From Verrucomicrobiota bacterium (lineage in GTDB: Bacteria > Verrucomicrobiota > Verrucomicrobiia > Palsa-1439), in NCBI GenBank assembly GCA_003152315.1, contig PLZV01000030.1, positions 62,001 to 126,000 on the forward strand: a stretch of DNA of 64,000 nucleotides, written 5' to 3'. Below are positions 56,623-63,369 of this stretch, one piece after another. Below the pieces are notes generated by a model that searched no databases, was not told where the DNA came from, and saw nothing but the letters and a program-made list of their open reading frames with translations. The position numbers and the translations under genes were made by a program. Position 1 is the first letter of the stretch; every line of letters starts with the position of its first letter.

Positions 56623-56988
56623 TCAGAAGCTGTATTCCTCGACCTCATGCAAGCACCAGATGACTCGGCTACGGTAGATGATGAAGTGGCTCCTGCACCC
56701 TACGGTTCTTCTTACCGATGGCAATAAGGTCACGTGCCCATTTCTGTGTTTCTGAAGTCTCCACGAAGGCCGAGCATCGTGAACCAAACTTAGGTGAATC
56801 ACATCCTCACAGCCACAAGGACAGCGGAGTGCCGCAGCCCAAACACACTCGTCATCCCCGATCTGGTAAATCACATTGGGACGGATCAAATCGGGCAGTC
56901 GCTTGGTCTTCTGCGTCCGGAACCGCGGCGGTTCACGGCGATTGGCGCGAAGCCAATCAGCCAACCGTTTTCGGAAGATGCGTCTCAT
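56623..56988 (-). CDS. DUF6527-type protein of a ubiquitin-like operon, 121 aa
   Basis: The ATG at 56988 overlaps the E1 stop (ATGA); the longer frame from 57084 is inside E1. The protein contains a Cys-x-Cys-x-Cys cluster, LRCPCGCEDVIHLSLVHD, then PSWRL, GHVTLLPSVRRTVGCRSHFI and a final RVIWC. This matches DUF6527, a small metal-binding-looking family encoded with bacterial ubiquitin-like genes as I recall. It may process or deconjugate the modifier; that is inference. It is the last gene of the operon. Confidence 0.75.
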   Translation of the reverse strand: MRRIFRKRLADWLRANRREPPRFRTQKTKRLPDLIRPNVIYQIGDDECVWAAALRCPCGCEDVIHLSLVHDARPSWRLQKHRNGHVTLLPSVRRTVGCRSHFIIYRSRVIWCLHEVEEYSF

Positions 56989-58373
56989 AATAAGGCTGGG
57001 TTCCCTAGCAGCGGATTCACATCGCCCCGGCCGACGCAACGATAAAGCAGCTTGCAGGGCGGGCCATCTGGAAGTTGTAGCCAAGATCCATCACAAAGCG
57101 AGAACACCTGATATCGAAAGCCTTGATTCGGGTCACGCCGGTAGGGGTGCACTCGTGCGAGCATCTCGTTCACAGCGTGCGTCGCGACGAAGCCGTTCAC
57201 GCTGATCACCGCTGGTCGGTCAACAGCGACACCCTTGATGTAGCCTTCCCTTTTCAAAGCGGCATACTGTTCCGGGTTCGTCCGGCGCAGTGCCTGCGCC
57301 TGCACCTGTTCCGGTGTAATCACCCCCCGCGATAAAAGGCTTGAGCCGCCCGGTATTAGATAATGCAATGCACAACATATCTGTTCAATTCCACCGCGAC
57401 CGTCCGCATCCAGCCGAACTCCAATATCGATGTAGGGCACCAAGTAATATGCGGCAATCCGATTCAATAGGTCCCGGCCATCAGCAGAGTCCATGCATCC
57501 AAACAGGAAATCACAGCCTGCCAAGGAATTGATCACTTCCGTCTTAGCCAAGTCGCATTGGAAGGTTTCGACAATCGTACCGAGTCCGATCGCTCGAACC
57601 GCATCTGCCAGAACATTTACTTTCGCGCGTTTGTTTTCTGCATCGACTGCCTTAGAGTTAACGATTCGATTCAGGTTCTTACGCTCAATGTGATCAGGGT
57701 CGATCAAAACGAGTTGTCCGACACCCAATCTAGTGAGTGCTTCAATTACCCAGCTACCCGTCCCCGAACAGCCAACCACTCCGATAGTCATCGATTTGAG
57801 CAGATTTACAGTTCCATCTCCAAACACCTGACGGGTTCGCAAGTTGACTTCATCTTCATTCAGCCGTGATTCGGCTTTAGTGAAGGATACCTCATCGCCA
57901 ACGGCCATTACTCGATCCACGGCCTGAAAACCCGCTTCGGTGTCCACAACACGGGCCCAAAGCTTTCCAGATGGCGACATGAATGCGCTGATCAGGCTTG
58001 GTGAGCGTTCCAGAACTGCCTCGATTGCTTTCCCCAATTGAGAATCCGTTTCGTCGTCTTGCGGAGAAAATCGCTCATATCCCTCCGGATGGGAGTGAAT
58101 CTTCATCACCCACATCCCTCGCTTGAGTGCCTTCTCCAACACAGGCACGAGCGTCTGCACGTCCCATCGAACTGCCGACCGGCTACGAAGCGAACAAGCC
58201 TTGACGGGAACTTCGGTTATTTCATGTACACAATAGACCTGGTTGTCCTTGCCAATGCGCGTCCCGCATAGAGCCAAAGCCGCCGACTCTCGCCCGTCGC
58301 CGGAAAAGAGATGGCACTGTAACCGAATTCGCTGCTCCTCAGTGAGGCGCAGTCTCCTGCTGGGGACGTCCAT
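56985..58373 (-). CDS. JAB deubiquitinase-like - E1-like fusion of a ubiquitin-like system, 462 aa
   Basis: I start at the ATG at 58373, 2 nt after the E2 stop. Residues about 20-150 are a JAB/JAMM peptidase: Glu near 51-54, then KIHSHPEGYERFSPQDD with H93, H95, S103 and D106 in perfect H-x-H-x7-S-x2-D spacing. Residues about 180-400 are a ThiF/E1 adenylation domain: IGVVGCSGTGSW, LVLIDPDHIERKNLNRIV, DAENKRAKV and CMDSADGRDLLNRI. At residues 342-349 the sequence is GGSSLLSR, with Ser344/345 and Ser348 where I would expect Cys-x-x-Cys. C-terminal adenylation of the modifier is predicted; transfer chemistry is discussed under findings. Confidence 0.85.
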   Translation of the reverse strand: MDVPSRRLRLTEEQRIRLQCHLFSGDGRESAALALCGTRIGKDNQVYCVHEITEVPVKACSLRSRSAVRWDVQTLVPVLEKALKRGMWVMKIHSHPEGYERFSPQDDETDSQLGKAIEAVLERSPSLISAFMSPSGKLWARVVDTEAGFQAVDRVMAVGDEVSFTKAESRLNEDEVNLRTRQVFGDGTVNLLKSMTIGVVGCSGTGSWVIEALTRLGVGQLVLIDPDHIERKNLNRIVNSKAVDAENKRAKVNVLADAVRAIGLGTIVETFQCDLAKTEVINSLAGCDFLFGCMDSADGRDLLNRIAAYYLVPYIDIGVRLDADGRGGIEQICCALHYLIPGGSSLLSRGVITPEQVQAQALRRTNPEQYAALKREGYIKGVAVDRPAVISVNGFVATHAVNEMLARVHPYRRDPNQGFRYQVFSLCDGSWLQLPDGPPCKLLYRCVGRGDVNPLLGNPALL

Positions 58374-58375
58374 TT

Positions 58376-58765
58376 CTAGTTTTTCCCTGTCTCGTGTTCC
58401 AACCAATGGCGGACGAGCACAATATGGGTTCCAACGTTATGCTGCCCGGGAATCCAGGAATAATGCCTCGACCAGCGTTGCCACTCCTTGCCGTCTACAC
58501 TCATGCGAGCTTGAGTCTGCCTGGGGGGGCGACCGTCGGCTAGGGCCAAATGGGGGAAAAAGTAGGCCATGTCGAGTGGCGCAACTGGATAGTTGCTTGG
58601 AATCTGAACGGCAACCGATCCGTTTGGGAGGTTAAAGCCCGGCGGAAATGCCAACCCATGAAGCAGAAGCCACTGGCCGTTAGCCTCTCGAATGGTTTCC
58701 CAATCGACTCCCAACGAATCGAGCTGTTCAATGTCATCTTCTGGGAGAGAAAACTGCCGACGCAT
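58376..58765 (-). CDS. E2-like protein (prokaryotic family E) without cysteine, 129 aa
   Basis: The protein has the short prokaryotic E2 pattern: LPEDDIEQL, GFNLPNGSVAVQIPSNYPVA, PLDMAYFFPHLAL, a central EWQRWSRHYSWIPG and a C-terminal THIVLVRHWLEHET helix. I read through all 129 residues and found no cysteine, so it cannot form the thioester typical of E2 enzymes. His, Ser and Trp residues near WQRWSRHYSW are candidates for a replacement function. It lies 3 nt after the ubiquitin-like gene and 2 nt before E1. Confidence 0.8.
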   Translation of the reverse strand: MRRQFSLPEDDIEQLDSLGVDWETIREANGQWLLLHGLAFPPGFNLPNGSVAVQIPSNYPVAPLDMAYFFPHLALADGRPPRQTQARMSVDGKEWQRWSRHYSWIPGQHNVGTHIVLVRHWLEHETGKN

Positions 58766-58768
58766 TGC

Positions 58769-59125
58769 TCAACCCTCTTGGACTTGACGCGGCAAGGTGT
58801 TGAACCGTTCAATGCCCGGCTTGGTGAAGTCGACTACCTCACCCAGTTCGACCGTGTGCAGTCCACCGCCCCGTATCTTCTGTGTCAGGATATAGCTTTC
58901 GGGTGGTGTCTTGCCCGCCAACAACAGGATGGCCCGCCCCGTCATGCGAGGCTCGGTCACTACGAAATAGCGGTCATCAACTCGAATCCGATACCGCTTG
59001 GCCTTCGGCGGGTGCTTGCCTGCGCGTGCGCATTCTTCAATATCGACCTCCTCGATGATGATTTCTTCAACAATGATGACCTCTTCGACGCGGTCTCCCT
59101 TCGGCTGCTTGTCATTTGTACTCAT
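58769..59125 (-). CDS. Ubiquitin-like modifier (Multiubiquitin family, single domain), 118 aa
   Basis: A ribosome site AAAGGA precedes the ATG. The N-terminal 42 residues are acidic (VEEVIIVEEIIIEEVDIEE). One beta-grasp-like domain follows: KRYRIRVDDRYFVVTEPRMT, RAILLLAGKTPPESYILTQK and LGEVVDFTKPGIERF. The chain ends QVQEG, leaving a C-terminal glycine ready for activation without processing. Related proteins can carry tandem domains, but here there is one. It is the first gene of the E2-E1-DUF6527 series, with 3 nt to the E2. Confidence 0.83.
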   Translation of the reverse strand: MSTNDKQPKGDRVEEVIIVEEIIIEEVDIEECARAGKHPPKAKRYRIRVDDRYFVVTEPRMTGRAILLLAGKTPPESYILTQKIRGGGLHTVELGEVVDFTKPGIERFNTLPRQVQEG

Positions 59126-59185: not shown

Positions 59186-59467
59186 CTACGGGCACTCAGG
59201 CAGGCTCAGCAGATTGTCCGGCTGCTCGCCATCGGCGATGGTCTTAAGATACTTGTGTCCAAAACGGCTAACAGCAACGATAACATCCACAACTCTACCG
59301 CCCTGATTCACGTAGAATTCCCACTTGCCGCTTTCAATGCCTTGAATGGCTTCTTCCTCCGTGATTTTCCACCGTGAACCGTTTGAGCCACCGATGTGAC
59401 TGATTCGCTCATGAGGGTTGTAACGGTCTGTTTTGTTAATGCATCGTACTTCGTGTCTACTGGCCAT
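59186..59467 (-). CDS. DUF3892-domain protein, 93 aa
   Basis: An AGGAGA ribosome site precedes the ATG at 59467, which I prefer to the frame start at 59638. DUF3892 is seen in VRCINKTDRYNPHERISHIG, GSRWKITEEEAIQGIESGKW and GRVVDVIVAVSRFGHKYLKT. The family is widespread and uncharacterised. It sits 60 bp before the ubiquitin-like gene, on the same strand, and may belong to the same transcript; whether it is part of the system is uncertain. Confidence 0.78.
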   Translation of the reverse strand: MASRHEVRCINKTDRYNPHERISHIGGSNGSRWKITEEEAIQGIESGKWEFYVNQGGRVVDVIVAVSRFGHKYLKTIADGEQPDNLLSLPECP

Positions 59468-59677: not shown

Positions 59678-60397
59678 TCATAAATTTAGGGCTCCTTGTC
59701 CGACCGCCTTGTCCCGCGACTCGTACAAAACGTTGTTGCTCCCGATTCGCAAAAGGTCGAGTTGCTCTAAGCGCACCCTTAGCGCACTGATGTTGACGCC
59801 GAACTGTTCTGCTAAGCGATACAGATTAGGCCATTTTGTGCGATCAATTTTCAGGGCCTCCTCCCGCAGTAACGCTTTGGGCATCGAAATGGCAGCCGCA
59901 TATCGGTTAACGGCCCTTGCTTCACTAGATTCATCAGCACGTGAATTCATCTTGCGAAGAAGTTCTTGGCCTTCGGGCGATGATTGTAAAATCTTAAGAA
60001 CGGTCACTTCTCCCGCAGGACAACTCCGAAAAGCAAACGGGCCTTGTTCGTCGACGCCAAACAAAGCTGGATGATCGAGAGTTGCTTTATCAACGAACAA
60101 GTCCCAATGCCCCATCTCGTGTCCTTTGGTGGAGCGCTCCAAGCCAGGCTTTTGTTGGAAAAGCCCTCGGCGCTTCTCATTCAATACGACCAACCTCTTC
60201 TTGGGAATAAGCGCTCCCAAAATCATTTCCCCAGGGAGCTCATCAATTTGATCCCACAAAAAATTAAGCTCCAAAATTCTTTCGGCCAGCAGGTCAATTG
60301 GGATTGGAGGCGTCAAAGGTTTGCCCACAAGACGTTCTAGCTCCGCAAGACGTGCTTCGGCAAGTTCCTCGATCTGCTGGTTGCGGAAGAATTTCAC
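59678..60397 (-). CDS. ImmA/IrrE-type metallopeptidase, 239 aa
   Basis: The GTG at 60397 overlaps the XRE stop (GTGA), so I use it instead of the ATG at 60439. The zinc motif is KGHEMGHWDLF (H93-E94-x-x-H97), and SRADESSEARAVNRYAAAIS provides the downstream Glu region. A C-terminal winged-helix-like part includes PNLYRLAEQFGVNISALRVR. In ICEBs1, ImmA cleaves the repressor ImmR to free the element. The same pairing occurs here with the XRE gene, so an antirepressor role is likely. Confidence 0.82.
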   Translation of the reverse strand: MKFFRNQQIEELAEARLAELERLVGKPLTPPIPIDLLAERILELNFLWDQIDELPGEMILGALIPKKRLVVLNEKRRGLFQQKPGLERSTKGHEMGHWDLFVDKATLDHPALFGVDEQGPFAFRSCPAGEVTVLKILQSSPEGQELLRKMNSRADESSEARAVNRYAAAISMPKALLREEALKIDRTKWPNLYRLAEQFGVNISALRVRLEQLDLLRIGSNNVLYESRDKAVGQGALNL

Positions 60398-60774
60398 TTG
60401 GCCTTTTCTTCTTTGAGTTTTCGTGAAAGCTCCTGCCATTGTTCCTCACTTAAATTCATGTCTTTGGCCGACCTGAAAAAAACACGCGCTCCCTCACTGT
60501 TTTTAATTGTGTCAGCCACGTCTGGATGGGCCTTCCCTGCCAATGCCAGTAGCTCATCTTCGTTAGCCCCAAGCTCCTTTGCAAGTTGGATAATGGCTGC
60601 GATAGAGGGAGGCAGCATCCTGTCGTTTTCGATCTTGCTCAGGTAAGTGAAGTCGAACCCCCGTCCGTCATCCTCCTTCAAGCGAGCAGCTACTCGCTCG
60701 GCGAGTTCGCGTTGAGACAGGTTCTTAAGCTGCCGAAGCAATCGCACTCGCTGACCAAATGTTTGCGATTTCAC
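60394..60774 (-). CDS. XRE-family (ImmR-like) repressor, 126 aa
   Basis: The start is GTG with AGAGG upstream. The HTH lies at residues 7-65: GQRVRLLRQLKNLSQRELAE, DFTYLSKIENDRMLPPSIAA and QLAKELGANEDELL. The C-terminal part (ARVFFRSAKDMNLSEEQWQE) is the usual link to ImmA-type regulation. A palindrome at 60793-60810 sits in its promoter. It is coupled to the ImmA gene by GTGA and divergent from the excisionase/integrase genes. Confidence 0.83.
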   Translation of the reverse strand: MKSQTFGQRVRLLRQLKNLSQRELAERVAARLKEDDGRGFDFTYLSKIENDRMLPPSIAAIIQLAKELGANEDELLALAGKAHPDVADTIKNSEGARVFFRSAKDMNLSEEQWQELSRKLKEEKAK

Positions 60775-60930: not shown

Positions 60931-61161
60931 ATGTCTGGGAACCACGAATCAGCGAACGTCGCACCGCCGACGCTGCCGGAAGCTCTGACGCAGACGGATC
61001 GCCTTGTCTATTCCGTCGAGGAAGCAGCCGAGCTTTTGGGTGTCCACTATTTCAGCGTCTATCGGATGATCCAGCGCGGCAAACTGCGCGCGTGCCGCGT
61101 GCTGCGGGGCAAACTGCTCGTGCCTCGGTCGGAACTGCTCAAACTCTTGAAGGCTGAATGA
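60931..61161 (+). CDS. Excisionase-type HTH protein 1, 76 aa
   Basis: The HTH_17/MerR-like winged helix spans residues 25-74: LVYSVEEAAELLGVHYFSVY, RMIQRGKLRACRVLRGKLLV and PRSELLKLL. Proteins of this type serve as excisionases or regulators of ICEs. The gene follows the operator at 60879 and is the first of the rightward recombination module. Confidence 0.75.
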   Translation: MSGNHESANVAPPTLPEALTQTDRLVYSVEEAAELLGVHYFSVYRMIQRGKLRACRVLRGKLLVPRSELLKLLKAE

Positions 61162-61180
61162 GGGCACGGAAAGGAGACGC

Positions 61181-61834
61181 ATGATCAAGAGAAAGGGCCA
61201 ACAACACCGGGAGGGCGTGACCCCACCGTCGCTTAAGCGGATGAGCGACACGGAGCACGCGGCATACTTTGAAGCATTTGGTGCTATCAAGGGCGATTAC
61301 CAGGCGCTCTGTTTGATCGGCGACAAGCTGCGCGAGGTCGAGGCAAGCGCACCTGGGCTTGGCTCTCTTGATTCTCAAGCACAGAGCGGGCATGCGGAGT
61401 TGCCCGACTTGGCTGGCGGTCGAAGTCCGTGGGAAGCCTGCGCTTCGTTGATGAGGCTGAACAACAACGAAGTTATCCTCTGCAAGCGAGTTAGTGAGCA
61501 CGGCTTGGAATATGCCGTGATTGATCACTCATCGGTCGCTTCGGCTTACGCCAAGGCGCATGGACCACTGGATGTGTTGCGCACTGGCGATAACCCGCGA
61601 CAAGTCCTTCGCGACTACCTGCGGAGCGAACGCGAGACTTTGGAACTCATGACCAACGACATCACCGCGAACGTCCGACTCCTCATCGCAGAGCGTTTTC
61701 CGAAGCAGGATTTGCGACGCGTCGTCAACGAGATCACGCGCATGTGCAAGAAAGTCGCTCGCTTCGGTTTCTCAGAAACGCCGACCGACGCCGCGACTCA
61801 GGCACAAAAACACGGAGGCGGTGTCCGTGTTTGA
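61181..61834 (+). CDS. Unknown protein of the recombination module, 217 aa
   Basis: The ATG at 61181 follows GGAAAGGAGACGC, a good ribosome site. The product is soluble and helical, with LKRMSDTEHAAYFEAFGAIK, a central segment LICKRVSEHGLEYAVIDHSS and a C-terminal basic helix (LLIAERFPKQDLRRVVNEIT). I see no catalytic signature. Its 3' end overlaps the GTG of the next gene by 14 nt, so it is translated with the second excisionase-like gene. Confidence 0.6.
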   Translation: MIKRKGQQHREGVTPPSLKRMSDTEHAAYFEAFGAIKGDYQALCLIGDKLREVEASAPGLGSLDSQAQSGHAELPDLAGGRSPWEACASLMRLNNNEVILCKRVSEHGLEYAVIDHSSVASAYAKAHGPLDVLRTGDNPRQVLRDYLRSERETLELMTNDITANVRLLIAERFPKQDLRRVVNEITRMCKKVARFGFSETPTDAATQAQKHGGGVRV

Positions 61835-62102
61835 GGAGCGTGACGCTTGTAGTGCGCCACTTGCATCTCCAGTGAAGGCTGAAATAAACACACCGTCAGA
61901 CAAGTTCCTCACAATTCAGAAAGTGGGCGAGCGGCTCAACTTGAGCCGCACAACAATTTGGCGACTCATGAATCAGCATGGCTTGCGTTTCGTTCGCATT
62001 GGTGGGGCGCGCCGCATCCGGGAGCGGGACTTGGAGACGTGGATTGAGCGGCATTCCGTCAGCCTCAATGCCGACAAGGACGACAAGGCCAAAGACGAAT
62101 AG
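61821..62102 (+). CDS. Excisionase-type HTH protein 2, 93 aa
   Basis: The GTG start overlaps the preceding gene. The HTH lies at residues 29-78: FLTIQKVGERLNLSRTTIWR, LMNQHGLRFVRIGGARRIRE and RDLETWIERH. The tail is acidic and Lys-rich. It lies directly before the integrase gene, the usual place of an excision directionality factor; either this or the protein at 60931 may fill that role. Confidence 0.73.
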   Translation: MSVFEERDACSAPLASPVKAEINTPSDKFLTIQKVGERLNLSRTTIWRLMNQHGLRFVRIGGARRIRERDLETWIERHSVSLNADKDDKAKDE

Positions 62103-62118
62103 AACCGATAACAGCAAG

Positions 62119-63369
62119 ATGAGCGACGGACAGACAGGGGAGACGAAGCAGCGAACCGCATTGGTGACGCCGGAAAAGATTGAGGGCGAGCCTGGGTTGT
62201 ATTGGCGCGGCGGGATGATTTACGCGCGTGTGCGCGTTGACGGCAAACAAACCTTTCGCTGCACCAGCACTGACAAGATTGCGGCGGCGCGGAAGGTTCT
62301 GGCGAAGTGGCGTGAGGATGCTGTGATGCGCCAGCATGGAATTGAGCCGAAGCAGGCGGCATTGGAGCGCAACCGGCTGACTGTGGCCGCAGTGCTTAAA
62401 GAGTATGTCGAATTTGGTTTCCCTGATCGCAAGAGCCGCATCAAGAAAACTGCCGCGACTCGGGAGACAGAGGGAAAGTCGATCCAGCGGTTGGAGGCAT
62501 TTTTCGGATCGCGCGCGGCGGTGAGCCTGACACTAAAGGATTGCGATGCCTACCGTAAATGGCGGGCAAACGGTGGATACACCTGGCAGCATGGTGAGAA
62601 GCTGCGCCGTAGTCGGGCGGGTGACCGGTGCGTGGACATCGAATTGCAGACACTCGGTAATGCGCTGGCGCACACTGTTCGACAGGAGAAACTAAAGGCC
62701 AATCCGCTGACGGGTCGAGGGCGTTACCACAGCGAAGAAGACACGCGCCATTGCCGCGAGACCGCGCCGACGCCTCAACAACTGCGCATCATCGCGCAGA
62801 CGTTCCGACAACGCAGCGAGGATGTGATTGCTGACTGCCTCTTGTTTCTAGGGTTCTCCGGGCTGCGCGTCCGTGAGGCGCTACGGCTGGATTGGGAAGC
62901 AGTGGATTGGGCAAACGGCGTGATACACGTCAAACGCGAGAAGCGCGGCATCAACCCGTTCGTGGCGATTCTGCCGGAAATGGAGACCTTGCTCCATGAG
63001 ATGCAGACACGCGCACCGAGCCACATGCTGTTCCCGTCGGACTTGGATGTGAACCGTCCGCTGCCGTATCCCACCGTAGCGAACAAGCTGCGCAATCTCT
63101 GTCGGTCGACCGGAATGCGGCATGTAACGCTTCACGGGTTGCGTAGTTTCTTCGTGACACAGTGTAGGGAATCAGGATTGCCCGATACGGAGATTGCCGC
63201 GTTGATCGGCGACAAGAGCGGCCCGGCCATCATCGCCCGCACCTACGGTGATGTGCGGCCTGAGCATCTACTCAAGCAGGCTCAGCGTGTCCGCTTCTTG
63301 GTAGGGGTAAAACCTAATGCCGAGACACCGAAGTTCGTCGCACAACGACCCCAAACCATCCGTCCTTGA
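62119..63369 (+). CDS. Tyrosine site-specific integrase, 416 aa
   Basis: I use the ATG at 62119; the frame opens at 61978 within the preceding gene. The N-terminal SAM-like core-binding domain lies near residues 85-200. The catalytic part has GLRVREALRLDWEAVDW (first Arg, near 248), HVTLHGLRSFFV (H-x-x-R near 339) and RTYGDVRPEHLL (Tyr nucleophile near 376). The gene ends 160 bp before the tRNA-Cys remnant, the standard arrangement for a tRNA-targeting integrase. Confidence 0.88.
   Translation: MSDGQTGETKQRTALVTPEKIEGEPGLYWRGGMIYARVRVDGKQTFRCTSTDKIAAARKVLAKWREDAVMRQHGIEPKQAALERNRLTVAAVLKEYVEFGFPDRKSRIKKTAATRETEGKSIQRLEAFFGSRAAVSLTLKDCDAYRKWRANGGYTWQHGEKLRRSRAGDRCVDIELQTLGNALAHTVRQEKLKANPLTGRGRYHSEEDTRHCRETAPTPQQLRIIAQTFRQRSEDVIADCLLFLGFSGLRVREALRLDWEAVDWANGVIHVKREKRGINPFVAILPEMETLLHEMQTRAPSHMLFPSDLDVNRPLPYPTVANKLRNLCRSTGMRHVTLHGLRSFFVTQCRESGLPDTEIAALIGDKSGPAIIARTYGDVRPEHLLKQAQRVRFLVGVKPNAETPKFVAQRPQTIRP

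Follow-up and report, generated by a model that had tools for sequence, protein, structure and literature searches.

The window analysed here, a 64-kb stretch of Verrucomicrobiota DNA, contains a complete Bub-type ubiquitin-like conjugation operon (positions 56623-59125, minus strand), a fresh example of a known system. From comparison of its protein sequences with those of relatives, we consider it probable that this operon moves the ubiquitin-like protein (Ubl) BubA by way of oxygen esters, from Tyr378 of the E1 to Ser99 of the E2 and on to a target, and that it is controlled by a CapH/CapP pair and carried as cargo by an ICE-like element.

Operon organization and relationship to known systems

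Four tightly packed genes make up the operon, separated by 3 nt, 2 nt and finally a 4-nt overlap:

58769-59125, minus strand: bubA, Ubl, 118 aa; Pfam Multi_ubiq (PF14452, 5.7e-16), with matches to solved BubA in PDB entries 9d59 (2.7e-5) and 9ea8 (4.6e-4)
58376-58765, minus strand: bubB, E2-like protein, 129 aa, 0 Cys; Prok-E2_E (PF14462, 8.3e-32) and Citrobacter BubB 9eae (6.5e-24)
56985-58373, minus strand: bubCD, fusion of a JAB domain (JAMM protease) and a ThiF/E1 domain, 462 aa counted from the ATG; ThiF 1.2e-27, Prok-JAB 1.8e-5
56623-56988, minus strand: bubE, DUF6527 protein, 121 aa; PF20137 (1.4e-18)

An earlier note, made from the sequence alone, had described this order (a Ubl ending in Gly, an E2-like protein, a JAB-E1 fusion and a DUF6527 protein, closely spaced) and had pointed to 'Bub' operons; the reading frames and Pfam matches bear out the former, and homology to solved Citrobacter BubA, BubB and BubCD, with all of the Pfam domains present, bears out the latter. 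The four components recur together in plasmid and chromosomal relatives, with the E2 either separate or fused to the Ubl, and the DUF6527 gene occupies the same last position as it does here. A single-protein scan of genome contigs and an alignment scan of viral contigs each returned one full-length relative. Among contigs classed as viral, an IMG/VR contig (975-5724) carries a complete Bub operon (BubAB fusion, BubCD, BubE) together with a gene for an HExxH peptidase, and adjoins genes that appear Mu-like by eye.

The closest solved system is that of Citrobacter (PDB 9ea4, 9ea5, 9ea8, 9eae, 9eav), which has the same proteins in the same order, the same WSRH motif in the E2 and the same Tyr in the E1; its BubCD (9ea4) matches the window's BubCD at 3.4e-70 over query residues 6-461. 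The two differ in BubA, which is a single, unfused, mature Ubl here but comprises three Ubl domains fused to BubB in a Citrobacter relative; in residues 345/348 of the E1, which are Ser/Ser here and Thr/Asp in Citrobacter; and in the adjoining regulators, which here are capH/capP-like genes on the same strand with a DUF3892 gene between them and bubA, whereas that Citrobacter locus pairs a hypothetical gene with one for a winged-HTH protein, and by their position these may be CapK/CapS-like.

Bil, which is set apart from the window's operon by its description, uses cysteine chemistry. It likewise combines a Ubl, an E1, an E2 and a JAB protein (BilABCD), and is antiphage according to literature as cited in PMC13373217. 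The Cap2/Cap3 proteins of type II CBASS also share the E1, E2 and JAB machinery and are sometimes found beside HTH and IrrE genes; Cap2, however, is an E2-E1 fusion that conjugates a CD-NTase, and its similarity to the window's BubCD is confined to the E1 domain. Iyer, Burroughs and Aravind had already listed this operon type, as row 6e, in 2006 (PMC1779556), and the Bub pathway has been studied by Ye et al. 2026, to judge by the passage of PMC13373217 that cites that work, along with Gong et al. 2025.

Candidate acceptor residues in the E1

The adenylation residues R236, K251 and D295 of BubCD are intact, and on the strength of their conservation the E1 half would be expected to adenylate the C-terminal Gly of BubA. 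The question is which residue, if any, then accepts BubA from the adenylate. Two sites within the E1 bear on this:

57240-57242, minus strand: codon for E1 Tyr378, in the crossover loop; putative E1 acceptor
57330-57344, minus strand: E1 Ser344-Ser345-Leu-Leu-Ser348; read as the vestige of a lost zinc-binding Cys-x-x-Cys

No conserved transfer Cys was found in the crossover loop of the 33 E1s compared. The conserved C293 adjoins the adenylation residue Asp295, and the 'ICC' cysteines that the earlier note had offered as another transfer site are indeed present, but as C333/C334 rather than near residues 342-343; they vary among relatives and were rejected as a transfer site. Tyr378, on the other hand, is retained in 32 of the 33 E1s. 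A global profile alignment, which alone spans the crossover loop (the local MoeB/BubCD profile alignment stops short of it), places the transfer Cys of MoeB approximately 4 residues before Tyr378, an offset that is itself approximate. Comparison of BubCD in PDB entries 9eav and 9ea5 reveals, within the aligned stretch, a Tyr to Phe substitution at the Tyr378-equivalent position (chain residue 372), corresponding to about Tyr370 provided that the D104A numbering offset applies. This substitution is a sign of the depositors' interest in the Tyr rather than of a particular role for it. Ye and colleagues are said to have described oxyester intermediates in the Bub pathway, and also a serine-protease family.

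We favor a route, suggested by these alignments, in which the adenylate is probably converted to an aryl ester on Tyr378. Chemical reasoning suggests that a Tyr-linked aryl ester would react more readily than an ester on Ser, which would let BubA pass on to Ser99 of the E2. Tyr378 could instead serve in binding of the substrate or of the E2, and a related scheme dispenses with a covalent E1 intermediate altogether, having Ser99 attack the BubA adenylate directly and leaving Tyr378 only to position the E2 or the adenylate. An E1 with intact adenylation residues and no conserved transfer Cys would suit such a scheme, yet Tyr378 is nearly invariant in precisely the loop where a nucleophile is expected, and we regard direct attack as possible, if rather unlikely.

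The earlier note had assigned the acceptor role to Ser344, Ser345 or Ser348, within the motif GGSSLLSR (E1 residues 342-349), and had placed a Cys-x-x-Cys pair at this site in relatives. The latter was correct: positions 345/348 are Cys/Cys in 11 of the 33 E1s, Ser/Ser in 12, and some other pair in 10 (Thr/Asp, Ser/Asp, Ser/Thr, Ser/Ala or Gly/Gln). The Cys-x-x-Cys, however, comes and goes with a second Cys pair downstream, which is present in 9/11 E1s with the first pair and in 0/22 of the others (Fisher p 1.4e-6, phylogeny ignored). This second pair (CPVC, CPIC, CLEC, CQFC or CxC) lies 47-48 residues past position 393; of the two Cys-x-x-Cys E1s without it, one ends at the edge of its locus and the other, from Phenylobacterium, genuinely lacks the pair. 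The same two pairs (CYRC with CPVC or CPLC) occur in the MoeB proteins encoded by related genomes, and in MoeB they hold a structural zinc. Given this co-occurrence, the Ser-x-x-Ser of the window's E1 is best read as the vestige of a lost zinc site.

Transfer of BubA to these serines as a serine oxyester could draw on the finding that 21 of the 22 E1s lacking the Cys pair have Ser or Thr at position 345. Position 348, by comparison, varies in such E1s (Ser, Thr, Asp, Ala or Gln), a Planctomycete E1 has Gly/Gln at 345/348, and the solved Citrobacter type has Thr/Asp. Moreover, the zinc-type relatives with the Cys pair retain the same E2 serine (WSRH in the E2 of five such operons, S-x-H in four more), so that whether the E1 has Cys or Ser here is not coupled to the chemistry of the E2. 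We consider an acceptor role for these serines improbable, and Tyr378 the better candidate within the E1.

The cysteine-free E2

As the earlier note had pointed out, the 129-residue BubB contains no Cys, and thus lacks the catalytic residue of a classical thioester cascade; thioester transfer through this protein is impossible. The absence is a property of the family, in which there is no conserved Cys column and 10 of 22 E2 domains are entirely free of Cys. A sequencing error masking a Cys in the window's E2 is, for the same reason, unlikely to matter. What the family conserves instead is centered on two codons:

58469-58471, minus strand: codon for E2 Ser99, in the invariant WSRH; probable oxyester acceptor
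58463-58465, minus strand: codon for E2 His101 of WSRH; likely catalytic helper, invariant in the 18-sequence alignment

Eleven residues are invariant among 18 aligned BubB proteins (D11, L15, Y59, M66, P71, Q96, W98, S99, R100, H101 and W104). When 11 operons were added to the first 22, the S-x-H motif was found to be retained in 31/33 E2s, the exceptions being Mesorhizobium AR07 (SRR) and an archaeal Haloarcula protein. Ser99 lies a few residues ahead of an invariant Trp, and in canonical E2s the catalytic Cys is likewise located a few residues before a Trp. The conservation of WSRH and S-x-H, the lack of a conserved Cys and this placement of the serine together make Ser99 the likely acceptor residue of BubB. 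In the mechanism that we propose, BubA would next form an oxyester with Ser99, assisted by His101, whose invariance suggests this role, and would then be passed to an amine of the target. When E1 and E2 were aligned with their homologues, as the earlier note had suggested, the E1 Ser-x-x-Ser proved variable and the E2 WSRH invariant among the 18 BubB proteins aligned; the serine-based oxyester transfer envisaged in that note thus finds support in the E2, with its invariant Ser99 and His101, but not in E1 residues 344, 345 and 348.

The type 6e systems have the same architecture as the window's operon (polyUbl, cysteine-less E2/RWD-like protein, JAB-E1 and metal-binding protein), and the missing Cys was noted when they were described, but the E2 was predicted to be inactive (Iyer et al. 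2006, PMC1779556, row 6e), whereas we favor a serine-based site. An E2-like protein that is catalytically dead and acts as an RWD-like Ubl binder would fit a family without a conserved Cys, as well as the weak matches of the BubB AlphaFold model (pLDDT 88) to canonical E2s such as UBE2N. The same model matches 9eae_C ('Citrobacter BubCD(D104A)-BubB') with a TM score of 0.93, and both the deposition of this BubCD-BubB complex in the PDB and the strict conservation of WSRH speak against a dead E2, which we judge improbable.

More distant arrangements were also encountered. At three loci (L077, L078 and L079, from genomes G007, G049 and G087), a three-Ubl protein is fused to an S-x-H E2 and accompanied by a JAB-E1 with Cys-x-x-Cys and Cys-x-Cys in which Tyr378 is conserved; no DUF6527 gene was detected at these loci. 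On a Haloarcula plasmid (841-3874), a KTSC-domain gene lies downstream of an archaeal operon of Prok-E2_E and ThiF genes that has neither WSRH nor the conserved Tyr.

BubA, the JAB domain and BubE

BubA consists of one Multi_ubiq domain (residues 45-112) behind an acidic N-terminal segment, and ends in LPRQVQEG, so that its reading frame stops at the conserved [E/D/N]G and yields the mature form directly. In close relatives, unfused BubA proteins stop exactly at EG, whereas fused ones run on past [E/D/N]G into BubB; the solved Citrobacter BubA ends in NNG, with BubB starting directly after. The JAMM residues, which the earlier note had described as intact, are E29, H93, H95 and D106 of BubCD, and are invariant in all 33 E1-JAB proteins compared. 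BubE bears the motif CPCGC...PS...GCRSHF, of which C56, C60, S91, C98 and H101 are kept among its relatives, residues compatible with either a metal site or a Ser-His protease; BubE is a possible Ubl protease. Sequence searches of BubE against the PDB gave no match, nor did its AlphaFold model (poor, pLDDT 67, from a 3-sequence alignment) yield a fold match. Removal or processing of BubA would be expected to fall to the JAB domain of BubCD and to BubE, which, since BubA is mature as translated and needs no maturation here, more likely serve deconjugation.

Regulatory genes and the surrounding element

Upstream of bubA, on the same strand, are three further genes, and the operon lies inside an ICE-like element:

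60394-60774, minus strand: capH-like helix-turn-helix repressor; HTH_19 3.4e-11, PADLOC capH 1.3e-5 (PADLOC HTH_VI slightly better, at 1.6e-6)
59678-60439, minus strand: capP-like IrrE/ImmA metallopeptidase with HEMGH (HExxH); PADLOC capP 1.7e-8, Peptidase_M78 9.9e-4 (just under the Pfam cut-off)
59186-59467, minus strand: small DUF3892 protein (93 aa), encoded between the capH/capP-like pair and bubA; PF13031 (1.9e-22)
19473-56200 and 60931-63369 of the window: ICE-like element, with conjugation genes, TrwC, TrbI, a ParA-type gene, excisionase-like HTHs and an integrase

A DNA-damage regulator next to the operon is a common but non-universal trait of Bub systems, 219/544 of which are linked to CapW or CapH+CapP (PMC13373217), and the capP and capH matches indicate its presence here. 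By analogy with the literature on relatives, CapH would repress the operon until CapP, activated by DNA damage, cuts it. The match to capH is a weak one, and a pair of HTH and IrrE genes beside an integrase could instead regulate the ICE. Most relatives have their HTH and IrrE genes in divergent orientation to the Bub operon. On a Rhizobium phaseoli plasmid (1-3778), genes for an HTH protein, an IrrE peptidase, a DUF2188 protein, bubA, bubB, bubCD and bubE follow one another on one strand, with a Cys-x-x-Cys E1 paired with a WSRH E2. YegP homologues have been located after capK-capS (PMC13373217), and the position between the regulators and bubA appears to act as a slot for a small-protein gene.

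The conjugation genes of the window (encoding a TrwC relaxase, TraG/TrwB-like proteins and TrbI), together with the ParA-type gene and a tyrosine integrase, argue that the Bub operon is cargo of the ICE-like element; no tRNA genes were found within the 64-kb window. Other cargo includes a ResIII/N6_N4_Mtase restriction-modification pair, AIPR, HNH, SIR2 with HerA, DUF2130, an SNF2 helicase and a YhcG-type nuclease. The operon would probably act in a stress response or in phage defence; phage protection by Bub operons has so far not been demonstrated, according to PMC13373217. Location in an ICE-like island might suggest a dead remnant decaying on a mobile element, but with four open, tightly coupled frames and every invariant residue kept, this is highly improbable.

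DUF3892 proteins and Ubl operons

A second DUF3892 gene of the same genome is found on another contig (6400-9126, minus strand), in a Cap2-Cap3 operon (Cap2 PADLOC E1-E2 2.1e-138, Cap3 JAB 2.8e-50) where it takes the place of the CD-NTase. Its product ends in DLRGGGRHG, resembling the tails of CD-NTases that partner Cap2 (GGGRYG, GGGRFG and GGGRHA in related operons), and the genome yielded no SMODS CD-NTase; this protein may serve as the cargo that is conjugated, or may have arisen by a deletion fusion. The DUF3892 protein of the window has no GGGRHG-type tail. On a Cupriavidus taiwanensis plasmid (3489-5990), a DUF3892 gene precedes, in this order, a small gene and the genes for a short Ubl, for a divergent ThiF protein and for a DUF6527 protein; divergent HTH and IrrE (capH/capP-type) genes flank them.

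Other genomes of the class showed no DUF3892 gene within about 1.5 kb of their Cap2-type genes, and no convincing match of DUF3892 to solved structures was obtained. As other DUF3892 genes are unlinked to Ubl or Cap2 operons, a general link is not established, and we propose only tentatively that the DUF3892 protein whose gene separates capH/capP from bubA is an intrinsic component of Ubl conjugation systems, as cargo or as a preferred target.

Implications

The comparison separates a likely zinc-site vestige, the Ser-x-x-Ser of the E1, from the real candidates for BubA transfer, Tyr378 of the E1 and Ser99 of the E2. With its single, pre-processed Ubl, the operon offers a version of the system convenient for assay, in which the deconjugation role of its two proteases would be separable from maturation. 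More broadly, it confirms that Ubl conjugation with a cysteine-free E2 is both widespread and mobile.
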